A stretch of DNA of 41,134 bases from Deltaproteobacteria bacterium (GTDB lineage Bacteria; Myxococcota; Myxococcia; Myxococcales; JAHFDP01), in contig JAHFDP010000035.1 of the NCBI GenBank assembly GCA_023248955.1, positions 1-41,134 on the forward strand, written 5' to 3'. Of the stretch, positions 9,414-27,722 are shown piece by piece. The translations under genes and the position numbers were made by a program. Positions within the stretch are counted from its first letter, which is position 1. Every line of letters begins with the position of its first letter. The notes under the pieces are model-generated. The model saw nothing but the letters and a program-made list of their open reading frames with translations, was not told where the DNA came from and searched no databases.

Positions 9414-9785
9414 TCAGGGCAGCTTGAGCCCAAGATGCATCGCCAGCGCGGCGTCCAGCGATTCCAGCGCCTCCTTGTAGATTCGACCGGCCTTGGCGAC
9501 CACGCGGCTGCGGTCGTAGGTCATCACCATCGATGCATTGGCCACGCGGCCCGAGGTCAGCGTCGAGCGGGGCTTGCGGAGGTCGACCATGTAGGCTCGT
9601 GCGGCCCGTTCGGCTGTGTATTCCTGCGTCGGGACGACGGTGACCACCGCGCCGAATCGATTGGCGATGTCATTCGACACCACGACGCACGTCCGTGTCT
9701 TGCGGGGCTCCGCGCCGACGGAGGGATCGCAGGCAATCCACAAGACTTCCCCGCGTTGGTAGGCGACTGGGTCAGTCGGCTTCAT
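9414..9785 (-). CDS. PemK/MazF-family endoribonuclease toxin
   Basis: A 123-residue toxin of the PemK/MazF fold, which cleaves mRNA when its antitoxin is lost. Family marks: QRGEVLWIACDP, the RTCVVVSNDIANRF strand pair, VVTVVPTQEYT, and a C-terminal helix (YKEALESLDAALAMHLGLKLP). The ATG at 9783-9785 lies inside the last codons of the antitoxin gene, overlapping it by 14 bases in another frame. This overlap is typical for toxin-antitoxin operons and keeps toxin synthesis tied to antitoxin translation. Confidence 0.92.
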   Translation of the reverse strand: MKPTDPVAYQRGEVLWIACDPSVGAEPRKTRTCVVVSNDIANRFGAVVTVVPTQEYTAERAARAYMVDLRKPRSTLTSGRVANASMVMTYDRSRVVAKAGRIYKEALESLDAALAMHLGLKLP

Positions 9786-10020
9786 CGTCCAGGAGCTCCA
9801 ATTGGCCGGCTTCGAAGTCTGCCAGCAGCGCGCGGGCGTCGCCACGGCCCTTGGTGTAGTCAGCGGCAAGTGCTCGGCGCCGCGCGACTGCTTCGTGCCG
9901 TTCCAGGCTTTCCACGAGGAGCGCGCGAGCAGCGGTGGCGCAGGGCTTCTTGGCGTTTTTTGAGTACCTTTTTAGCTTCAAAAAAGTCTCTTTCTCGAGT
10001 GTCAAATTGACGCGTTCCAT
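9772..10020 (-). CDS. Ribbon-helix-helix-type antitoxin of the PemK pair
   Basis: An 82-residue protein. The N-terminal MERVNLTLEKETFLKLKRYS fits a ribbon-helix-helix strand plus helix A. The next helix (NAKKPCATAARALLVESLERHEAVA) completes the DNA-binding half. The acidic C-terminus (LLADFEAGQLELLDDEAD) would be the toxin-neutralising segment. The start at 10018-10020 is chosen because the RHH strand begins there; there is no ribosome site upstream, but a promoter and palindrome abut the ATG. First gene of the pair. Confidence 0.88.
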   Translation of the reverse strand: MERVNLTLEKETFLKLKRYSKNAKKPCATAARALLVESLERHEAVARRRALAADYTKGRGDARALLADFEAGQLELLDDEAD

Positions 10021-14223: not shown

Positions 14224-14484
14224 ATGCCTGAGATTGCTCGCTTCCTCGGGATCGTCGTAGCGATGCTCTACAACGATCATGCTCCACCGCACTTCCATGT
14301 GCGGTATGGCGGACATGAGGCATCTGTCGTCATCGACCCACCGGGGCTGCTTGCAGGGAGGTTACCTCCGCGCGTGTTCGCCCTGGTCGTCGAGTGGACC
14401 GTTATTCACCGCGAAGACCTCCTCGCGGATTGGGAGCGGGCGCGAACACTGCAACCTCTCCTACCTATCGCGCCATTGGAGTGA
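14224..14484 (+). CDS. DUF4160 domain protein
   Basis: 86 residues covering the whole DUF4160 family: the start MPEIARFLGIVVAMLYNDH, then APPHFHVRYGGHEASVVID, LAGRLPPRVFALVVEW and a C-terminal HREDLLADWERA. The HAPPHFH histidines are the family hallmark. Function is not established; genes of this family very often sit directly before a DUF2442 gene, as here. A TATGCT -10-like hexamer lies about a dozen bases before the ATG. Confidence 0.9.
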   Translation: MPEIARFLGIVVAMLYNDHAPPHFHVRYGGHEASVVIDPPGLLAGRLPPRVFALVVEWTVIHREDLLADWERARTLQPLLPIAPLE

Positions 14485-14485
14485 G

Positions 14486-14785
14486 ATGATGATCGTGAAA
14501 ATTACCGAGGTGTCCTGTTTGGGCGGCACTCGGTTGCACCTTCGGTTCGATGACGGTGCTGCGGGAGAAATCGACGTTGCAAAACTTGTCCCCTTCTCGG
14601 GAGTTTTTGCGCGGCTTGGAGAACCCGGCGAGTTTGAGAAGGTCTACGTCGACGCGATGTGGGGGACGATTTGTTGGCCCGATGGCTTGGACCTGGCGCC
14701 GGAGGCACTCTACGAAGAGGTCACCGGAAGAAATCCCCTTGCCGGCGCGAAAGAAGGAACTCATTCGCCACCCTTAGATCATTGA
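14486..14785 (+). CDS. DUF2442 domain protein
   Basis: 99 residues. MMIVKITEVSCLGGTRLHLR, FDDGAAGEIDVAKLVPFSGV, FARLGEPGEFEKVYVD and GTICWPDGLDLAPEALYEEV match DUF2442 from end to end. The tandem ATGATG follows the DUF4160 stop by one base, with GGAG just upstream in the preceding gene, so the two are co-translated. The size, pairing and spacing resemble a toxin-antitoxin module, but activity is unknown. Confidence 0.9.
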   Translation: MMIVKITEVSCLGGTRLHLRFDDGAAGEIDVAKLVPFSGVFARLGEPGEFEKVYVDAMWGTICWPDGLDLAPEALYEEVTGRNPLAGAKEGTHSPPLDH

Positions 14786-14866: not shown

Positions 14867-15787
14867 GTGATCGTCTCCACGCGAAACGCTTGTTTGATGA
14901 TCAACCGCAACGCCCGTGGCGCTTCGGGAGGCGCTTGGGAAGACGAGGTGCGGCGCGTTCTCGCGCAGCGTTTTCAAATCGAAACCGTCTATCCCGCAAC
15001 CGCAGACGAGATGTCGGCGACCGTGCACGCGCGCGTTGCAGACGGTGCGTTGGCGGTGATCGCGGGCGGCGATGGTTCGTTCAACGCGGCGTTGCGCGCG
15101 CGCGCCGATGGACCGCTAGCCATTCTCCCATTGGGGACTGCCAACGATCTGGCTCGCGCGCTGGGGCTTCCGCTCGATCCGGTGCGCGCGGCAGAGCGCA
15201 TCGTGCATGCGCCTGCAAATCGGTGGGATCTTCTGACGGTGAACGGCCATCCGTTTTGTACGGTTGGTGGAATCGGCACCGCCGCCGCGGTTGTCGCCGG
15301 CATCAAGGCTTTGCGTGCGCGAAAAGGTATCGGAGCGGCAGTTGCGCGCCGGCTGGGATCGCGCATCTATCATCTCGTCGCCGCGCAAATGATTGTGATG
15401 CGTCGACTCGTTTGCGAGGACGTCACGATCGAAATCACGCCTCCCAGAGGCGGTTCGCATGAACAGGTTCGCTGCCAAAGCGCGCTGATTCTGGTGGCCA
15501 ATCAGCCGACGGTTGCCGGCACGTTGCGCGTCTCTCCTCGATCGCACACGAATGATGGCTTCTTCGAGTTGTGTATTTTTCGCGCGCGCGATCGTGTCGA
15601 GCTGCTGGCCGCCTTGGCCAAACTTCTGGCGGGCGTGCCGGTCGACGGCATCGAGGTGCACACAGCCTCGGCGGCTCGGTTACGCGTTGATCGCAAGATG
15701 ACATTTTTCGGTGACGGAGAAATCTTGACGGAAGCGGATACCTTCGAAATCGCCGTCGCGCCGGGCGCCATTACTCTGGTTGGCTAG
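14867..15787 (+). CDS. Diacylglycerol-kinase-family (YegS/DgkB-like) lipid kinase
   Basis: About 306 residues. Phosphorylates a lipid alcohol (diacylglycerol or a related lipid) with ATP at the membrane. The first strand is ACLMINRNARGASGG; the nucleotide-binding GGDGS is at residues 67-71; LPLGTANDLARAL is at about 87-98. FFGDGEILTEADTFEIAV near the end is the other conserved block of the family. The start may be the GTG at 14867 or the ATG at 14897; the family strand begins just after the former, and no ribosome site decides. The 3' end overlaps by 17 bases, tail to tail, with the CDP-alcohol phosphatidyltransferase. Confidence 0.93.
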   Translation: MIVSTRNACLMINRNARGASGGAWEDEVRRVLAQRFQIETVYPATADEMSATVHARVADGALAVIAGGDGSFNAALRARADGPLAILPLGTANDLARALGLPLDPVRAAERIVHAPANRWDLLTVNGHPFCTVGGIGTAAAVVAGIKALRARKGIGAAVARRLGSRIYHLVAAQMIVMRRLVCEDVTIEITPPRGGSHEQVRCQSALILVANQPTVAGTLRVSPRSHTNDGFFELCIFRARDRVELLAALAKLLAGVPVDGIEVHTASAARLRVDRKMTFFGDGEILTEADTFEIAVAPGAITLVG

Positions 15788-16349
15788 CGGCAGCGCCACG
15801 CAAACGCAGCGCCGCTGCGAGCGTCGGCACATTGGGCGTCCAGCGCGGCAGCAAGGCGGTGATGGCGATCTCCTCGAGCTCCGCAAGAACCAAAACGGAC
15901 GTCGCGAGTTGCAGCGGCCATGCGGGTCCATTCGCAAACATAACGAACGAAGCAGCGCCGATGAGATAAGCGCTCAACACCGCGCCGCGTGTGTGGTAGC
16001 TCGTCAGCCGCGAGTATTTGAAAAAACCGAGGGTCACCGGGAGCGTGTAGGCGAGCACGATGGCGACGAAAACGGTGGCGTGAAATCGCACGAAATCGTT
16101 GCGCAGCCAGTAGGCGTCGAGCGGAACCGTCATGTAGAGCGCGAAGTCGGCCCAGCTGTCGAGCTTGGTTCCGAACTCGGAGGTCTGGTTCAGGTAGCGC
16201 GCCAGTTTGCCGTCGACGATGTCGCTCACCAGCGCCAGGGCGAACAGGATGAGAAACGCGCGGTCTTGGGCGTAAAACGCAAGCCCAACGAGCACCGGCG
16301 CCGCGCAGAGACGAAAAATACTAAGTATATTCGGTAATGTCCAGCGCAT
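15771..16349 (-). CDS. CDP-alcohol phosphatidyltransferase family enzyme
   Basis: 192-residue polytopic membrane enzyme. It displaces CMP from a CDP-lipid with an alcohol headgroup (or the converse) and needs divalent metal. The full signature D-x2-D-G-x2-A-R-x8-G-x3-D-x3-D is present, with Asp43, Asp46, Asp64 and Asp68. The start MRWTLPNILSIFRLCAAPVL is like PgsA and cardiolipin-synthase relatives. The headgroup acceptor cannot be told from sequence. It follows the CarS-like gene by 10 bases and probably shares its transcript. Confidence 0.93.
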   Translation of the reverse strand: MRWTLPNILSIFRLCAAPVLVGLAFYAQDRAFLILFALALVSDIVDGKLARYLNQTSEFGTKLDSWADFALYMTVPLDAYWLRNDFVRFHATVFVAIVLAYTLPVTLGFFKYSRLTSYHTRGAVLSAYLIGAASFVMFANGPAWPLQLATSVLVLAELEEIAITALLPRWTPNVPTLAAALRLRGAAASQPE

Positions 16350-16359
16350 TGGGTGTGTC

Positions 16360-16923
16360 TTACCCCACGCGCCGTTTGAGGCCCATGGTCTTCATCACCC
16401 AGGCGGCGAACGGATGAATAACGAGCGTGATGACGAGAAGCCATTCAACGATCGCGATCGGAAGCGAGCCGAAGAGAAGCGCGACGGCAAGAACGCCGAG
16501 GAGGCTGTCGATCTGATCGAGGATCCAGAAAATGGCGCGTGTGTTGCCGTGAGCCGCGTCGCCCGGCGCGATGTCGAGCCGGCGTTTCAAGAAGCTGTTG
16601 GGCAATTCTCCGAGTAGGTAACCTGCGCCAAGCGCGGCTCCCCAGAGGAACGGCCGTTCTGCTTGGACGATGGAAACGCACCAGGTCCGGGCATTCGGGA
16701 TCAGGTCAAGGAGCGTGGCCAGCGCGCCTCCTGCGAGTGGCATCACCACGAGACCGCGTAAGGTCTTGTTGGCGCCGAAGAGGCGGCGACCGCCGAAGGA
16801 GATGCCGCTGTCGAGGGGAAAGCGCGCGAGATTCGCGAGAGCGCCGGATCGAATCACAGCGATGTGCACGGCGCCCGCGCCGATGACGGGTAGTGCAAAC
16901 CAGAGCGCGGCCCAGAGATCCAA
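16360..16923 (-). CDS. CDP-archaeol synthase-like (CarS family) CTP:phospholipid cytidylyltransferase
   Basis: About 187 residues, multi-span. FPLDSGISFGGRRLFGANKT (residues 35-54), followed by LRG, matches the archaeal PLDxGxxxxGRRxFGxxKTxRG motif. SFLKRRLDIAPG (110-121) and ILDQID (134-139) match the KRR...G and DQxD catalytic region. The family activates a phosphatidate-type ether lipid with CTP, a reaction like CdsA. TTG at 16921-16923 is preferred: family similarity starts there and it clears the upstream oxidoreductase stop by 10 bases. ATGs at 16977 and 16995 would overlap that gene. Substrate is open. Confidence 0.85.
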   Translation of the reverse strand: MDLWAALWFALPVIGAGAVHIAVIRSGALANLARFPLDSGISFGGRRLFGANKTLRGLVVMPLAGGALATLLDLIPNARTWCVSIVQAERPFLWGAALGAGYLLGELPNSFLKRRLDIAPGDAAHGNTRAIFWILDQIDSLLGVLAVALLFGSLPIAIVEWLLVITLVIHPFAAWVMKTMGLKRRVG

Positions 16924-16933
16924 CGCGGCGAAG

Positions 16934-18490
16934 TTAATTCGCTCGCCCCAAATCCTTGAGCACCCGCATCGCCGCATTGTGCCCAGCCGCGCCAATCACG
17001 CTTCCCGCTGGATGGCAGCCCGCGCTGCACGAATAGAGCCCTCCGATCGGCGTCGCGTACGGCAATCGATCCGAGAATCCGAAGGCATTATCCACGTGGT
17101 GAATATGGCCGCGGGTGATGCCAAAGTATTTCTCGATCTTCGCCGGATGCAGCGGGAACGTGTCCGCTACCAGGTCGCTCGTCCCCGGCGCGAAGCGGTC
17201 GCAAATCGAGAGCAGGTGCTTCACGTAGCGCTCTTCCTCGGCTTCCCACGTCGTGCCCTTGAGCTCGTACGGCACCCACTGCACGAAGAGCGCGGAGTTG
17301 TGGTGCCCCGCGGGATCGCGCAGCGTCGGGTCGACGGTGGTGTGGATGTACCACTCGATGGTCGGGAACTCGGCCAGCTTGCCGGCCTGCACCGCGGCAA
17401 ATCCTTCGCGCAGGCCGCGCATGACGTCTTTCTCCTCGGGGAGGAGGTGGATCGTGGTGCCGTACTGGCCGCGATCTTCCGGAAGGCATTTGAACTTCGG
17501 CAGTCCCTTGAGCGCCATGTTTACTTTGAACGTCGTGCCGTCCTTGCGGTAGCCGTCGATGCGCGCGTTGTAATCCTGCGGCAGCGCGTCGCGGCCGATC
17601 AGCGATTGCATGCGGAACGGATCGGCGTTGCACACCACCACCTTGGCGCGCACTTCCGTGCCGTCCTTGAGTAGCGCGCCCGCGACCGCGCCTCTTTCGA
17701 GAATCAGCCGCTCGACACCTTTGCCCGTCTCGATCGTGGCGCCCGCGGCCCGCGCGGCCTCCGCGATTTTTCCGCTGACGGTCCCCATGCCGCCTTTGAC
17801 GATCATCCAAGTGCCGTCGGATCCCGGCAGCCGGCACATGTTGTGAACGAGAAAATTCATCCCGGTGCCTGGCGTGTCCCAGGTGCCATTGAGGCCCGAG
17901 AAGCCGTCGGTGACCGCGTACATCGCGCGGACCAAGTCGCTCTTGAAATCGAAGCGCGAGAGGTAGTCGCCGACCGATTTGCGGCACAGGTCGATGAAAA
18001 CTTGGCGCAGCGCGGGGCGCACGTAACGCTCGGCGGTGCCTTCGATGGAGAGCGGCTCCTCGAGCCACGTCGGCGCCACGTCGTCGCGGATGGCGCCGAT
18101 CTCTTTTTGCAGCGCGACGTTCGCTTGCCAATCGCGCTCCGAAAAGAAGGAGATGAACTGCTGCTTCATCGCGGCGGTGTCGGAACCGAAAAGGAGATAG
18201 CGGTTGCCGGTGGTGGGCAGGAAGTAGTGCGGATCGCGGCGCACCAGCGGCAAGTCGATGCCGAGTTTTTGCGGCAGTTCCGGCGGCATGAGGCCGAGCA
18301 GGTAGGCCCCGGTGGAGGTGGCGAGCTGCGGCACTTTCGTGAATGGCCGCTCAGTACGGACGGCGCCGCCGATGACGTCTTTGTCCTCGAGGACGGTGAC
18401 CTTGAGCCCGGCGCGGGCCAGCATGAGCGACGTGACGAGGCCGTTGTGGCCAGCGCCGATGACGAGGACGTCAGAAGTTAGAGGCAGCAT
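16934..18490 (-). CDS. FAD-dependent oxidoreductase, CrtI/PYROXD2-like
   Basis: 518 residues. The N-terminal dinucleotide fold (VLVIGAGHNGLVTSLMLARA, residues 9-28) is followed by VLEDKDVIGGAVRTE, the second strand that binds FAD. The C-terminus GLYSCSAGCHPAGSVIGAAG closes the FAD site as in phytoene-desaturase and PYROXD2 relatives. HxF-rich middle sections (WDTPGTGMNFLVHNMCRLPG) suit a hydrophobic substrate channel. It might reduce or oxidise isoprenoid or other lipid chains. ATG at 18490 is 13 bases inside the upstream lipoprotein gene, so the block is transcribed together. The carotenoid role is not supported by neighbours. Confidence 0.88.
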   Translation of the reverse strand: MLPLTSDVLVIGAGHNGLVTSLMLARAGLKVTVLEDKDVIGGAVRTERPFTKVPQLATSTGAYLLGLMPPELPQKLGIDLPLVRRDPHYFLPTTGNRYLLFGSDTAAMKQQFISFFSERDWQANVALQKEIGAIRDDVAPTWLEEPLSIEGTAERYVRPALRQVFIDLCRKSVGDYLSRFDFKSDLVRAMYAVTDGFSGLNGTWDTPGTGMNFLVHNMCRLPGSDGTWMIVKGGMGTVSGKIAEAARAAGATIETGKGVERLILERGAVAGALLKDGTEVRAKVVVCNADPFRMQSLIGRDALPQDYNARIDGYRKDGTTFKVNMALKGLPKFKCLPEDRGQYGTTIHLLPEEKDVMRGLREGFAAVQAGKLAEFPTIEWYIHTTVDPTLRDPAGHHNSALFVQWVPYELKGTTWEAEEERYVKHLLSICDRFAPGTSDLVADTFPLHPAKIEKYFGITRGHIHHVDNAFGFSDRLPYATPIGGLYSCSAGCHPAGSVIGAAGHNAAMRVLKDLGRAN

Positions 18491-19151: not shown

Positions 19152-21365
19152 TTACCGCACCGAGCCCGAGTACATGAGGAATGGGACGAACGGCGCCGTT
19201 CCCGCGGCGGTCTTGCCTGGCCAGTTGAGCGGTGCGTTCTCGGGCTCGATGGAAATCAGGAATCCGTCGGCGGCAGAGACATCAAACGGAACGTCGAACG
19301 GCGCCGTGGTGGAGATGCCGGTGGTGCTGCCAGCCTCGCCCGAGACCGCGGCGTCGAACGTTCCAACGCTGATGAAATTGTATTTGGTGAGGTCCTCGCC
19401 GGTGTCGAAGAGCCACGCGCTGTACTTGAGGTGATAGGGCGCGAGATCGGGGAGGTCGGTCGCTTGAATGACGAGGTGGCCGTTCTTCACATTGCCCGTG
19501 GTGAAGACCTGGAGCAAGACGGTTGGGCCGCTCGCTGGTCCGAAGGGGCTGCCGGTGCTGAGCACCCGCGACTGCGTGCCCGTGGCCGGAATGTTGTACG
19601 CGGAGTAGCCCGTTACGGTGAAAGAGGTGTTGTCAAAGCCAGAAGAGAAGAGCGCCAGGCAGTTGTCGACGGTGTAGTTGACCGGATCGCAGATGTAGCT
19701 GTCCGTGCTCTTCTCCATCAGCACCGTCATCAGTTGACGAGGATCGTGGGTCAGGGTGGTGATGGCTCCCGACTTTTCGAGCGTGATGGCCAAATAGCCG
19801 TTCATGGTGGTGATCACCGAAGCGCTGGTCACGGGATCTGTCCCCTTGACCGAGCCGATGGTTCCGAGGTCGTACGGCGTCTTGGGATCGAAGGCAGGTT
19901 CGCCGACCACACCAAGTTGGGTGAACGTGGCGGTTGGACCCAGGCTGCGGGTCTTGACCCCGGCGAGGTTGTAGACGTTGATGGCGGCCGTCGGCTCCTT
20001 CCCGGCTTGGGCCGCCAGCAAATCGACCTCGGTGTTGAAACGGCCGAGCGAAATCCACTTGTCCTTGGAGCGATCCATGGGCGCCTTGGCATCCGTGAGG
20101 ATCGCCCAGAGTCCGTAGAGCGAGCCATCGCCGCCGTGCGCGGCGTCGGCCAGCGGCCAGAGAATGCCACAGCCATTCGAACCGCAGGAGAGATCCAGCG
20201 TAAGCGTGGTCAGGTTGGTCTCGTATTTCGGGGTCTCCGAGCAGATTCCCCTGCTGGTTCGGCAGTAGCTGCTGTTGCTGACGGAAGCGCAGACCGTGTC
20301 ATCCGTGCAAGTCACTTCAGAATGGGGGATTATCGCCGGCACCGACGACACCTTCGCTTGACCGCCGAAGCCAAGGGCGCCGTTGGAAATATTCGTCTGG
20401 TTCTTGAAGCCGTTCGGCTGGTTTTTCCAAACTCCGGGCACCAGGAAAAACGGCGCCGTCTTTCCTGCGGCCGAGAGATCGGTATTCGGCGCGCTGGCGA
20501 CTTCTGGCGTCGGCTCGAGCGAAATGGCCACCGCTTCGATGTTGCTGAAATCGTCCTTCGGTTTTCCGGCCCAGAAGATGGTGGGGCCGCCGCCGCTGGC
20601 GTTGGCATCTTGCGGGCCTGCGTCGTTTGCCCGCCAAGTCGCCACGCCCCCGGCGTAGTCGATCATCCACACCTGGTAGCCGAATCCGATGCTCTTGAGC
20701 GAAGGCCAGCCCTCGAAGTCGACGATGATCAGGTTGCTGACTTTGTTGGCGACGCCCGCGGTATTGGCGGTGAGCGTGATGTTCGCGCGCGCTTGCGAGA
20801 GGTCGACGGGGAAATCCATCGAAACGACGGTCCCGCTGATGGTTCCTTGCAGAATGCGCACGGTGCTCGGCGTGGTGGGCGTGGCGCCGGAGGATTCGAG
20901 CGTAACGAAGAGCGTGCCTTTGCCGACCAGCGTGGTCAGGTCGGTTCCGGCCGGCGCTGCGAATTGCAAGCTCGCCGCCGGTGTGCCGCTGGCCGCGCCG
21001 CTGGCGTCGATGGCCTGCATCTGTTTCCCGTCGGTGGTGATGTTGAAGTTGCCGATGCCGATGGTTGTGTTGGCCGTGGTGTCGAGCGCCCACACGCGGT
21101 AGTTGGCGCTGCTGAGCTTCACCAGGTTCGTCGCGCCCAACGTGATGCTGGTCGTGGAAAGGGAGGCCGATGCGTTCGGAAGGCGCGACGCGTCAAAATT
21201 CATTCCGCCAGGACCGGTTGCGCCGGTTGAGTTGCCGCCGCGCCCGCCATTGGCGCCAGGGGCGCCCGGTAGGCCTTGAATGCCTTGTCCGGCAGGGCCT
21301 GGCGCTCCATCTTTTCCGGCGCAGGCGGTGACGGCGACAACGAACAGAACGGCGGCGCGACGCAT
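19152..21365 (-). CDS. Lipoprotein with collagen-like stalk and four RskA-like repeat modules
   Basis: 737 residues. MRRAAVLFVVAVTAC is a lipoprotein signal (lipobox VTAC). Residues about 18-54 are a Gly-x-y collagen-like stretch (KDGAPGPAGQGIQGLPGAPG). Then four modules start near residues 89, 229, 415 and 650: each has Y-x-x-W-x-x-D (YRVWALD, YQVWMID, YGLWAIL, YSAWLFD), a G-x-F-N-type strand and an ISLEP/ISIEP-type ending. These resemble the extracytoplasmic part of RskA-type anti-sigma factors, without a membrane sigma-binding domain. A Cys pair region (CTDDTVCAS...CRTSRGIC) lies near residue 360. Start at 21363-21365 with GGGAG; the in-frame upstream extension is a palindromic repeat. Surface adhesin or binding protein is a guess. 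Confidence 0.82.
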   Translation of the reverse strand: MRRAAVLFVVAVTACAGKDGAPGPAGQGIQGLPGAPGANGGRGGNSTGATGPGGMNFDASRLPNASASLSTTSITLGATNLVKLSSANYRVWALDTTANTTIGIGNFNITTDGKQMQAIDASGAASGTPAASLQFAAPAGTDLTTLVGKGTLFVTLESSGATPTTPSTVRILQGTISGTVVSMDFPVDLSQARANITLTANTAGVANKVSNLIIVDFEGWPSLKSIGFGYQVWMIDYAGGVATWRANDAGPQDANASGGGPTIFWAGKPKDDFSNIEAVAISLEPTPEVASAPNTDLSAAGKTAPFFLVPGVWKNQPNGFKNQTNISNGALGFGGQAKVSSVPAIIPHSEVTCTDDTVCASVSNSSYCRTSRGICSETPKYETNLTTLTLDLSCGSNGCGILWPLADAAHGGDGSLYGLWAILTDAKAPMDRSKDKWISLGRFNTEVDLLAAQAGKEPTAAINVYNLAGVKTRSLGPTATFTQLGVVGEPAFDPKTPYDLGTIGSVKGTDPVTSASVITTMNGYLAITLEKSGAITTLTHDPRQLMTVLMEKSTDSYICDPVNYTVDNCLALFSSGFDNTSFTVTGYSAYNIPATGTQSRVLSTGSPFGPASGPTVLLQVFTTGNVKNGHLVIQATDLPDLAPYHLKYSAWLFDTGEDLTKYNFISVGTFDAAVSGEAGSTTGISTTAPFDVPFDVSAADGFLISIEPENAPLNWPGKTAAGTAPFVPFLMYSGSVR

Positions 21366-21407
21366 GATTGCTCCCTTGAAAAATGGACGAGTGTCAAAAA
21401 CGGGCGG

Positions 21408-21437
21408 AAGGTAGCAGGACGCGTGCAAACGGCGCAA
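21408..21437 (-). promoter_or_regulatory. Possible promoter of the collagen-like lipoprotein gene
   Basis: On the minus strand TTGCGC (21432-21437), an 18-base spacer, then TACCTT (21408-21413). The leader to the ATG at 21365 would be about 35 bases and contains GGGAG. Weak pattern match. Confidence 0.3.
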
Positions 21438-21562
21438 TCCGGCAACTGCCGGACGATTCGGAAGACCTAAGAAGAAACTCGAACCCGTTTCCGGCGTCGG
21501 GGACCGCCGAAGGCCGGTGAAAACTAAACCCAACGTTCGCGATGATTGGGGCCACGCCATTT

Positions 21563-21651
21563 CGTCATGGCCGGCCAAGGAGCCGGCCATCCACGTGTAT
21601 CTTACCGGCGTCCACCGCGTGGATGGCCGGGTCAAGCCCGGCCATGACGGG
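21563..21651. repeat. Paired palindromic intergenic repeat (CATGGCCGG-type REPIN)
   Basis: Two palindromes in opposite orientation: CGTCATGGCCGGCCAAGGAG (from 21563) and, mirrored, CGTGGATGGCCGGGTCAAGC (from 21618) ending in CCGGCCATGACGG. In translation such elements give the PSWPGLTRPSTRW pattern. The element sits in the 328-base gap 21366-21693 between the collagen-like lipoprotein gene and the SspB-like gene. That gap otherwise holds the possible promoter and nothing coding that I can support. Confidence 0.85.
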
Positions 21652-21693
21652 TTGGGCCGCCTCACCTCAAGCGAGTTGTGGAATTAAACCAGA

Positions 21694-25750: not shown

Positions 25751-27709
25751 CTAGCCCGCGGCTAGCCGTCGCTGTCGGAGCTCCGCCAGGCCGGCCACCG
25801 CCATCACCAAGAGCACCGCGCCCTGCGCCAAGAGTCCCTCGCGCGATCCGTAAACGCCCAACGCTGGAATCGTGAAATGCAGCGCGAGTGAGAGCGGGAG
25901 CACGGCGGCTTCTTGCAATGAGCGCACGGCTTCGCCGGTGACCACGACCGCCAGCACCGCGAGAACCGCGCTGGACGTGGTCATCAGCGTCTGCGTCTTT
26001 AAGCGCAGCCCGATGTACTGGAGGCTGAAGACCGCCACCGCGAGGAGCACCGCACCGACCGCCGCGCCGGCAGCAATGGACGAAGCGAATCCCGGCGATT
26101 CCAAGAGGAGCGATCGGTAGAAAATGACCACCTCGAACGTCTCTCGGAAAATGCACAAAAAGGCTACGCTGCCGATGGCCCATGCGCTGCCGCCGGCCAT
26201 GCGCGAGCGTGCGGAGAGCGCGTCGAGCAGGCGTTTGAGCGAGCTGCGCGAGACCAGCCAGCGCGCAGCGGCCAGCAAGAGCACGGCGGTGAGGACTTGC
26301 AAGACGCCTTCGGTAAGCTCGCGCGCGGTACCGCTGCCGCGCGCCAGGAGTAGGCCGGAGACGAACCAGAGGATCGCGCCGAACGCCAACGCGACGAGAA
26401 CGCCGCTGGTGACGGCGCGGGCGGCGGGCGGTCCGGCCAGTTTTTTGGCGAGCGCGAGAAGGGCGGCGATGAGCAACGCGGCTTCCAACCCTTCGCGAAG
26501 CAGAATGGCCAACGCGGCCAAGAAGGAGACGCTGGCGCCGCCCACGCGTGCGGCGCGTTCGGCTTCGGTGAGCAGTGCTTCCAGTCGGGCTCCGTCGGTC
26601 TGCACGGCGACGGCGGTGGCGCGCTGTTCCATGGAGGTGCGCAGCGCGGTGAACGCGGTTTCGATCGAGGTGACCAACGCCGCTTCAGAAGCGCGCAGCT
26701 TGGCTTCGTGCGGCTCGAAGGAATCGAGATAGGCGGCCAACACCGCGCCGCGCGCAGCCACTGGCGATTGCGGATCGTAACTGCGAATCGCTTCACCGAC
26801 CGCGCGACGGGCAGCGGCCAGCGGCGTCTGCGCGGAAGGATGGTAGGGCGCTTCGGTGCGCAGCCGCGCCGCGGCACCCTCCAGCGCGGCGCCGGAAAAT
26901 CCATGCTCGACGAGCGCGTCGCGTAGCTGAGCGTTGGTGCTTGACGCCAGAGTGGAGAGCGGTGGCGCGAATTCCTGGAAGGGGGCCGCACCAGCGTGAT
27001 CGACCGTTTCCGTCATTGCTAGGAGGTAAAACGCCACATCCCAACGAGTCGCCTCGTCCCAGGCCTCCTCGTAGGCCGGCATGGCCGTGCCCGGAACGCC
27101 GTAGGCGATGGCGCCGAAAATGCGCTCGGGAGACAGCTCGGCGCGCCGTTGTGCACGGGTGAAATCCGGCAGCGGTGTGGAGAGCGAAAGGCCAGAGTGG
27201 CCCGCGCCATCTTCGCCGTGGCAAGAAGCGCACCCTTGCGTATAGAGCGCGGCACCGCGATCGCGCGACGGAACTTGCGTCGGTCCCAGCGTGAGTCCAG
27301 CGTCTCTGATCAAGTCGCCGCGCAGACGCTTGGCGGTGGCCGTGACTTCGTCCGCTGGCCGTCCGGCCTGAATGGCTCCGGCGAGCTGCTCGAGCGACCC
27401 GGCGAGCCACATTGGTGCGGCGGCATTCGCGTCCGGTCGCACCGTGGCCGCTGCATCGGTGAGAAACCCGTGCTCCTCGGCAATCTCCGCGGGATCCACG
27501 ACCTTCCCGTCGTGCAGAGCGGGCGGATAATCGGTGGCGACATAGTCGAGCAGCGCGGCCACGCGTTTGAGAGATGAGGCGGAGGGATCGGCCGCTTGCG
27601 CTGTGTCAATAACTGCGATCCACAGAGCGAAGGCAACGAACGAACGAAGTCGCACCACGGGCGTTGGCGTCGATGCTAGCGCGAGGTCGCGTGTGGAAGG
27701 TCGGCGCAT
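25751..27709 (-). CDS. FTR1-family iron permease with N-terminal cytochrome c domain
   Basis: 652 residues. A signal peptide ends near TAQAADPS (about residue 40). A periplasmic domain contains one c-type heme site, Cys160-Cys163-His164 (CASCHGEDG), with a Met ligand candidate in GTAMPAYEEAW. The permease half carries both iron-binding motifs, REGLE (405-409) and RETFE (522-526), on about seven membrane helices. The fusion suggests that electron transfer at the heme couples to Fe(II) oxidation and uptake. The start ATG at 27707-27709 is after an in-frame TTG. It is divergent from an aldehyde dehydrogenase over a Fur-type region. Confidence 0.92.
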   Translation of the reverse strand: MRRPSTRDLALASTPTPVVRLRSFVAFALWIAVIDTAQAADPSASSLKRVAALLDYVATDYPPALHDGKVVDPAEIAEEHGFLTDAAATVRPDANAAAPMWLAGSLEQLAGAIQAGRPADEVTATAKRLRGDLIRDAGLTLGPTQVPSRDRGAALYTQGCASCHGEDGAGHSGLSLSTPLPDFTRAQRRAELSPERIFGAIAYGVPGTAMPAYEEAWDEATRWDVAFYLLAMTETVDHAGAAPFQEFAPPLSTLASSTNAQLRDALVEHGFSGAALEGAAARLRTEAPYHPSAQTPLAAARRAVGEAIRSYDPQSPVAARGAVLAAYLDSFEPHEAKLRASEAALVTSIETAFTALRTSMEQRATAVAVQTDGARLEALLTEAERAARVGGASVSFLAALAILLREGLEAALLIAALLALAKKLAGPPAARAVTSGVLVALAFGAILWFVSGLLLARGSGTARELTEGVLQVLTAVLLLAAARWLVSRSSLKRLLDALSARSRMAGGSAWAIGSVAFLCIFRETFEVVIFYRSLLLESPGFASSIAAGAAVGAVLLAVAVFSLQYIGLRLKTQTLMTTSSAVLAVLAVVVTGEAVRSLQEAAVLPLSLALHFTIPALGVYGSREGLLAQGAVLLVMAVAGLAELRQRRLAAG

Positions 27710-27722
27710 CAGCAAGAAGTGA

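Follow-up and report, generated by a model that had tools for sequence, protein, structure and literature searches.

A candidate accessory phospholipid module with a CarS-like CTP transferase in a Myxococcota genome

We investigated a block of four genes at positions 14867-18490 of a 41,134-nucleotide stretch of a deltaproteobacterial genome (contig JAHFDP010000035.1, referred to below in its whole length as the window). Three of these genes, coding for a lipid kinase, a CarS-like protein and a CDP-alcohol phosphatidyltransferase, probably form a module for an accessory phospholipid, whereas the fourth, coding for a flavin adenine dinucleotide (FAD)-dependent oxidoreductase, stands apart; we put the probability of this reading at roughly 0.62. 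The analysis shows family membership, intact catalytic motifs, a CarS fold and a conserved gene set. New here are the conserved kinase-CarS-transferase module, which is small (three genes, <2.1 kb), and the repeated pairing of bacterial CarS proteins with unrelated kinases. The four genes are as follows.

14867-15787, plus strand: YegS/DgkB-family lipid kinase, 306 amino acids, with DAGK_cat and YegS_C domains
15771-16349, minus strand: CDP-alcohol phosphatidyltransferase, 192 amino acids, PF01066
16360-16923, minus strand: CarS-like protein, by sequence a putative CTP:lipid-phosphate cytidylyltransferase, 187 amino acids from TTG 16923, PF01864
16934-18490, minus strand: FAD-dependent oxidoreductase, CrtI/CrtO/PYROXD2-like, 518 amino acids, PF01593

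The layout agreed with an earlier reading of the same DNA (the original prediction), which had joined all four genes in one lipid pathway. All four open reading frames (ORFs) were present at these positions, with the kinase and transferase genes tail to tail and overlapping by 17 bases (15771-15787), a gap of 10 bases between the CarS-like and transferase genes (16350-16359) and a further 10-base gap between the stop of the FAD gene and TTG 16923. The CarS-like stop codon occupies 16360-16362 on the minus strand, and the mechanically called ORF starts at TTG 16995, within the FAD gene. Comparison with relatives favours TTG 16923 as the probable start, since the homologues at loci L025 and L026 have 7-8 residues ahead of the first conserved tryptophan, and so would the window protein. 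The predicted families were recovered by Pfam profile searches, with scores of 57-74 bits plus a fold match, far above chance.

The CarS-like protein matched PF01864 (CarS-like) with 57.1 bits against a cut-off of 22, over profile positions 6-171 of 175, and gave no match to PF01148 (CTP_transf_1). A profile built from six bacterial relatives retrieved CarS of A. pernix (PDB 5GUF) with an E value of 2.1e-13 and no other notable match. Moreover, when an AlphaFold2 model of the protein (predicted local distance difference test 95.3, predicted template modeling score 0.89, from a 36-sequence alignment) was compared with the PDB, 5GUF was the only significant fold match (E 4.7e-5, TM 0.65/0.76). 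The motifs FGANKTLRG, SFLKRRL and LDQID were found in the protein as had been predicted, and eight residues (D38, K53, S110, K113, R114, D136, D139 and H170) were common to it and A. pernix CarS and nearly invariant among 85 sequences. Archaeal CarS proteins (A. pernix, PDB 5GUF, and A. fulgidus) are like the window protein in Pfam family and fold and share with it G-x2-K-T, S-F-x-K-R-R-L, L-D-Q-x-D and a late histidine. GxNKT and GELPNS of the window protein correspond to GDGKT and GDMxxS in A. pernix CarS, and conservation at these sites is partly built in, since the relatives were gathered by these motifs. In contrast to the archaeal proteins, the window protein did not reach the cut-off of the archaeal equivalog (NCBIfam PRK04032; 75.5 bits against 148), and its genome lacks the archaeal lipid core genes considered below. 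The bacterial relatives L026 and L025 scored 67.8 and 60.0 bits on that profile. Assignment to the CarS family was thus upheld by the Pfam score and the match to 5GUF, and the term "archaeal-type" is right for family and fold but not at the level of the archaeal equivalog. By the same two lines of evidence, the protein does not belong to an ordinary bacterial family of other function, and a mis-called CdsA was ruled out. CdsA (PF01148) carries out the type of reaction predicted for the CarS-like protein, and likewise after the lipid phosphate and ahead of the head-group transferase, but is of a different subfamily, and no CdsA structure was among the fold matches listed for the CarS-like protein. 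Two weak PF01864 matches in relatives were put down to cross-hits with CdsA, L003 being a uppS-cdsA locus.

The kinase matched PF00781 (DAGK_cat; 61.8 bits) and PF19279 (YegS_C; 52.3 bits), both over cut-off, and its GGDGS and PLGTANDL motifs were intact. It scored below every NCBIfam sub-family cut-off, which leaves it with no named subtype, and its nearest solved structures were a diacylglycerol kinase-domain protein and YegS. The same domain architecture and GGDG motif are found in DgkB/YegS kinases; what sets the window kinase apart from them is that its gene is linked to those of CarS and of a CDP-alcohol transferase. It falls in a subgroup of its own, apart from the other kinases of its genome: it was 32-40% identical to the CarS-adjoining kinases of L025, L026 and L029, and module kinases scored 65-155 bits among themselves compared to at most 46 bits against the other kinases of the window genome (38 bits for the window kinase and its best paralogue). 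The transferase matched PF01066 with 73.9 bits and had a complete catalytic motif (D43-x2-D46-G-x2-A-R-x8-G60-x3-D64-x3-D68), of which the catalytic residues were invariant in an alignment with the transferases of L025, L026, L032, L086 and L104. It met no NCBIfam equivalog cut-off, the best match being ClsA (NF053678) with 51.6 bits against 240.

In a maximum-likelihood tree of CarS proteins, whose archaeal side was one partial chain (5GUF), the window protein and those of L025-L032 formed a nine-member clade (support 100/98). Nested within it was a five-member subclade (window, L025, L026, L029 and L032; support 98/84) that spans Myxococcota, Acidobacteriota, Verrucomicrobiota and Pseudomonadota. 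All five members of this subclade had a lipid kinase gene at most 300 bases from CarS, of YegS type in four and SEC59/VTE5-like in L032, and four of the five had a window-type transferase; the module transferases of the relatives were 49-57% identical to that of the window. In L025 (Holophagaceae, Acidobacteriota) and L026 (Myxococcota), a compact operon carries kinase, CarS and transferase one after another. The CarS and kinase genes abut in L029 (Pseudomonadota), and in L032 (Opitutaceae) the SEC59/VTE5-like lipid kinase ORF is followed by CarS and then by the window-type transferase. The kinase is co-directional in L025, L026 and L029 and convergent with the transferase in the window. The L027 locus stops at a contig edge. 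We also observed, about 3 kb away in both L026 and L032, a major facilitator superfamily transporter-like protein of the lysophospholipid-transporter type, named by inspection.

Formation of CDP-lipids in bacteria is usually ascribed to CdsA alone. A strong CdsA, the only PF01148 match of the window genome, was found on contig C23 directly after uppS, and the genome also encodes three CDP-alcohol transferases besides that of the window and other DAGK-family kinases. Since a separate canonical cdsA is present, the CarS-like protein would be an accessory enzyme and not a replacement for CdsA. No PcrB/GGGPS was detected in the genome (assembly 95.6% complete) by a search that was positive in archaeal and Bacillus controls and did not extend to DGGGPS. 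As a candidate G1PDH, the only PF13685 match was rejected, being a 3-dehydroquinate synthase (aroB) beside shikimate kinase. An archaeal ether-lipid core is unlikely in this genome because GGGPS was not found and the PF13685 match is aroB.

The order of reactions that we infer for the module begins with the kinase, which would convert a membrane-soluble lipid alcohol, most likely diradylglycerol-like, to a lipid phosphate with ATP. The CarS-like protein would then form CDP-lipid and pyrophosphate from the lipid phosphate and CTP, as was shown for archaeal CarS (PMC9385802), and the transferase would join the CDP-lipid to a head-group alcohol, yielding a phospholipid and CMP. This order, put forward in the original prediction, gained support from the finding of the three genes together in other phyla and from the pairing of other bacterial CarS proteins with phosphotransferases. 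The module would work alongside the housekeeping CdsA, on a pool of lipids that are poor substrates for CdsA. A dedicated kinase would be sensible for a lipid core that enters the route as an alcohol instead of as acyltransferase-made phosphatidic acid. Archaeoglobus CarS was shown to prefer its native substrate strongly to phosphatidic acid and failed to rescue an E. coli cdsA mutant (PMC9385802); by analogy, such discrimination against phosphatidic acid would fit a separate lipid pool.

The spread of CarS in bacteria was investigated by scanning some 85,000 species genomes for the motifs GxNKT and ELPN, an approach that is blind to more divergent bacterial or archaeal members; 370 relatives were confirmed by tblastn and the best 80 of them were kept. 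All of these best 80 were bacterial, and they came from many phyla (Acidobacteriota, Myxococcota, Pseudomonadota, Planctomycetota, Bacteroidota, Chloroflexota, Bacillota, Spirochaetota, Patescibacteria and others). The presence of CarS in a bacterium is thus not very unusual. The original prediction had treated it as a surprise against a norm of CdsA, a contrast that dissolves with CarS-like proteins in many phyla and CdsA in this very genome. A published study did not detect CarS in Cloacimonetes (PMC7852524). Our literature searches returned nothing useful on DUF46 or CarS-like proteins in bacteria, no paper linking CDP-archaeol synthase with phosphoenolpyruvate synthase or biosynthetic gene clusters, and no description of the clusters with PPDK/RPH-like proteins reported next.

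Neighbouring genes were counted at 83 non-redundant CarS loci, 31 of which had 9 kb on both sides; the loci are related sequences ranked by likeness to the window, and the counts are descriptive, with no formal test. A YegS, PPDK/RPH-like or VTE5-like phosphotransferase lay within 2 kb of CarS in 22/31 loci, compared to 2/31 at a distance of 7-9 kb, and the corresponding figures for a phosphatidyltransferase were 15/31 and 2/31. The PPDK/RPH-like phosphotransferase, composed of PPDK_N and PEP-utilisers domains, over the NCBIfam "phosphoenolpyruvate synthase" cut-off and related to rifamycin phosphotransferase, was found in 58 of the 83 loci and at most 300 bases from CarS in 36. A VTE5-like kinase was equally close in eight loci, and in Kordia an APH-like kinase domain follows an HMG-CoA reductase domain just upstream of CarS. 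Fatty-acid desaturase genes were at most 300 bases from CarS in 17 loci, phosphatidylserine decarboxylase genes within 4 kb in 12/83, and UbiA-like proteins were among the further neighbours. On the CarS tree, the type of the adjacent kinase switched at least five times. Other bacterial CarS clusters are like that of the window in having CarS beside a phosphotransferase, and often a phosphatidyltransferase; those with PPDK/RPH-like proteins differ from it by an unrelated kinase family, more tailoring genes and other CarS clades.

In L016-L019 and L033-L104 (e.g., L018:177-3064, L019:6746-11048 and L037:9259-13999), CarS very often adjoins the PPDK/rifamycin-phosphotransferase-like protein. Such clusters contained either a desaturase, a methyltransferase and a PlsC-like acyltransferase or, alternatively, a class III aminotransferase, a PssA-like transferase, a phosphatidylserine decarboxylase and a UbiA-like protein. 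HMG-CoA reductase was encoded near or just before CarS and the transferase in L079:7627-11070, L086:7600-11051, L032:8007-11144 and L090:1602-4313, and in Kordia, L090 and others the reductase was linked to a domain resembling APH/ecdysteroid kinases. A Bacteroidetes locus (L104:102-4903) had in line a DUF3419-like methyltransferase, a VTE5-like kinase, a GNAT-like protein, an AMP-ligase, CarS and a CDP-alcohol transferase, and L096 had a similar set.

The FAD protein matched Amino_oxidase/DAO in Pfam (PF01593, 49.2 bits) and was of CrtO/CrtI type in NCBIfam. A tblastn search with the window proteins found its homologue in none of the 83 other CarS loci. Its orthologues, 65-76% identical, were present in 14 of the 40 Myxococcales genomes examined, next to ABC transporter, SCO1-like and ferredoxin genes in one group and to dnaX-recR in another. 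We conclude that it is an independent gene of the order, placed upstream of the module by chance and possibly co-transcribed with it, since its orthologues sit in other contexts and no CarS locus has a homologue. The four-gene unit was thus rejected on gene context, and the part that the original prediction gave this enzyme in the pathway found no support; the block is kept in relatives as far as its three other genes are concerned, but not for the FAD gene.

Four other explanations were weighed against the three-gene module. Under ordinary redundancy, the kinase would return diacylglycerol to the phosphatidic acid pool, the CarS-like protein would act as an additional CDP-diacylglycerol synthase and the transferase would make a common phospholipid (cardiolipin or phosphatidylglycerol). 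Diacylglycerol kinases and YegS as the nearest solved kinases, ClsA as the best match of the transferase, if far under its cut-off, and the lysophospholipid-transporter-type protein at L026 and L032 are all in line with it. Nevertheless, we consider redundancy rather unlikely: the genome already has a cdsA after uppS plus other transferases, Archaeoglobus CarS disfavours phosphatidic acid and does not rescue E. coli cdsA (PMC9385802), and de novo phosphatidic acid needs no dedicated kinase, yet bacterial CarS is repeatedly paired with one. It is improbable that all four genes form a pathway in which the FAD oxidoreductase desaturates or reduces the chains of the same lipid. The FAD gene is co-directional with CarS and 10 bases from its start, its product is of a phytoene-desaturase-like family, and a different redox enzyme, the fatty-acid desaturase, adjoins CarS in 17 other loci; however, the FAD homologue was missing from the 83 other CarS loci, and its orthologues in Myxococcales occupy other contexts, in genomes among which the CarS-like gene is rare.

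Synthesis of an archaeal-type isoprenoid ether lipid in this bacterium would be suggested by the family and fold of CarS and by UbiA-like prenyltransferase-family proteins or HMG-CoA reductase near CarS in other phyla. With no GGGPS where the controls were positive, albeit in an assembly that is 95.6% complete, a PF13685 match that is aroB and a score of 75.5 bits against the archaeal equivalog cut-off of 148, we give this explanation hardly any credence. One broad superfamily takes in both the CTP-dependent prenol kinases and CdsA/CarS, and VTE5-like proteins adjoin CarS in loci of Chloroflexi and Patescibacteria. On these grounds the CarS-like protein could be a kinase that uses CTP to phosphorylate a lipid phosphate, in the manner of SEC59/VTE5 or VTE6, the module then yielding a lipid diphosphate. 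This is very improbable, since the adjacent CDP-alcohol phosphatidyltransferase requires a CDP-lipid donor, the catalytic residues match those of A. pernix CarS and CarS was the only significant solved fold.

Some observations weigh against the three-gene module as well. The window kinase is on the opposite strand, and the Steroidobacteraceae-type loci L028, L030 and L031 belong to the same CarS clade with neither an adjacent kinase nor an adjacent transferase. The CarS-like gene is sporadic, occurring in 6 of the 179 genomes of the window's phylum, and the genomes compared include no close relative of the window genome, a family of one, in which conservation of the block could be followed. 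Furthermore, pairing with a kinase is no proof of action on the same molecule, and we found no biochemical data for any bacterial CarS-like protein.

The CarS cousins in hundreds of bacterial genomes and their unrelated partner kinases suggest a second, modular route from lipid alcohol to phospholipid, and these findings bear on how the split between CarS and CdsA relates to the archaeal-bacterial lipid divide. More tentatively, and with less than even odds, bacterial CarS proteins might be widespread, undescribed CTP:lipid-phosphate transferases for non-standard lipid alcohols, each with a partner kinase from one of four unrelated families (YegS/DgkB, PPDK/RPH-like, SEC59/VTE5-like and APH-like), making phospholipids beyond those of CdsA; the window would hold the YegS version.

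Other features of the window were observed outside the block. A palindromic dispersed element (GATGGCCGGGTCAAGCCCGGCCATGACG plus partner arm) at 21566-21650 had 75 copies in the genome with at most 3 mismatches, compared to 0 copies of its reversed control. It lies within the annotated start of the ORF at 19152-21665 (minus strand), the true start of which is probably further in; the product of this ORF is large, looks secreted and includes a short collagen-like run of Gly-x-y (GKDGAPGPAGQGIQGLPGAPGANGG). A member of the PemK/MazF-like toxin family (67.7 bits) is encoded at 9414-9869 (minus strand) and a DUF2442 protein (56.6 bits) at 14279-14785 (plus strand), and the gene at 25751-27715 (minus strand) fuses cytochrome c domains to an FTR1-type iron permease.

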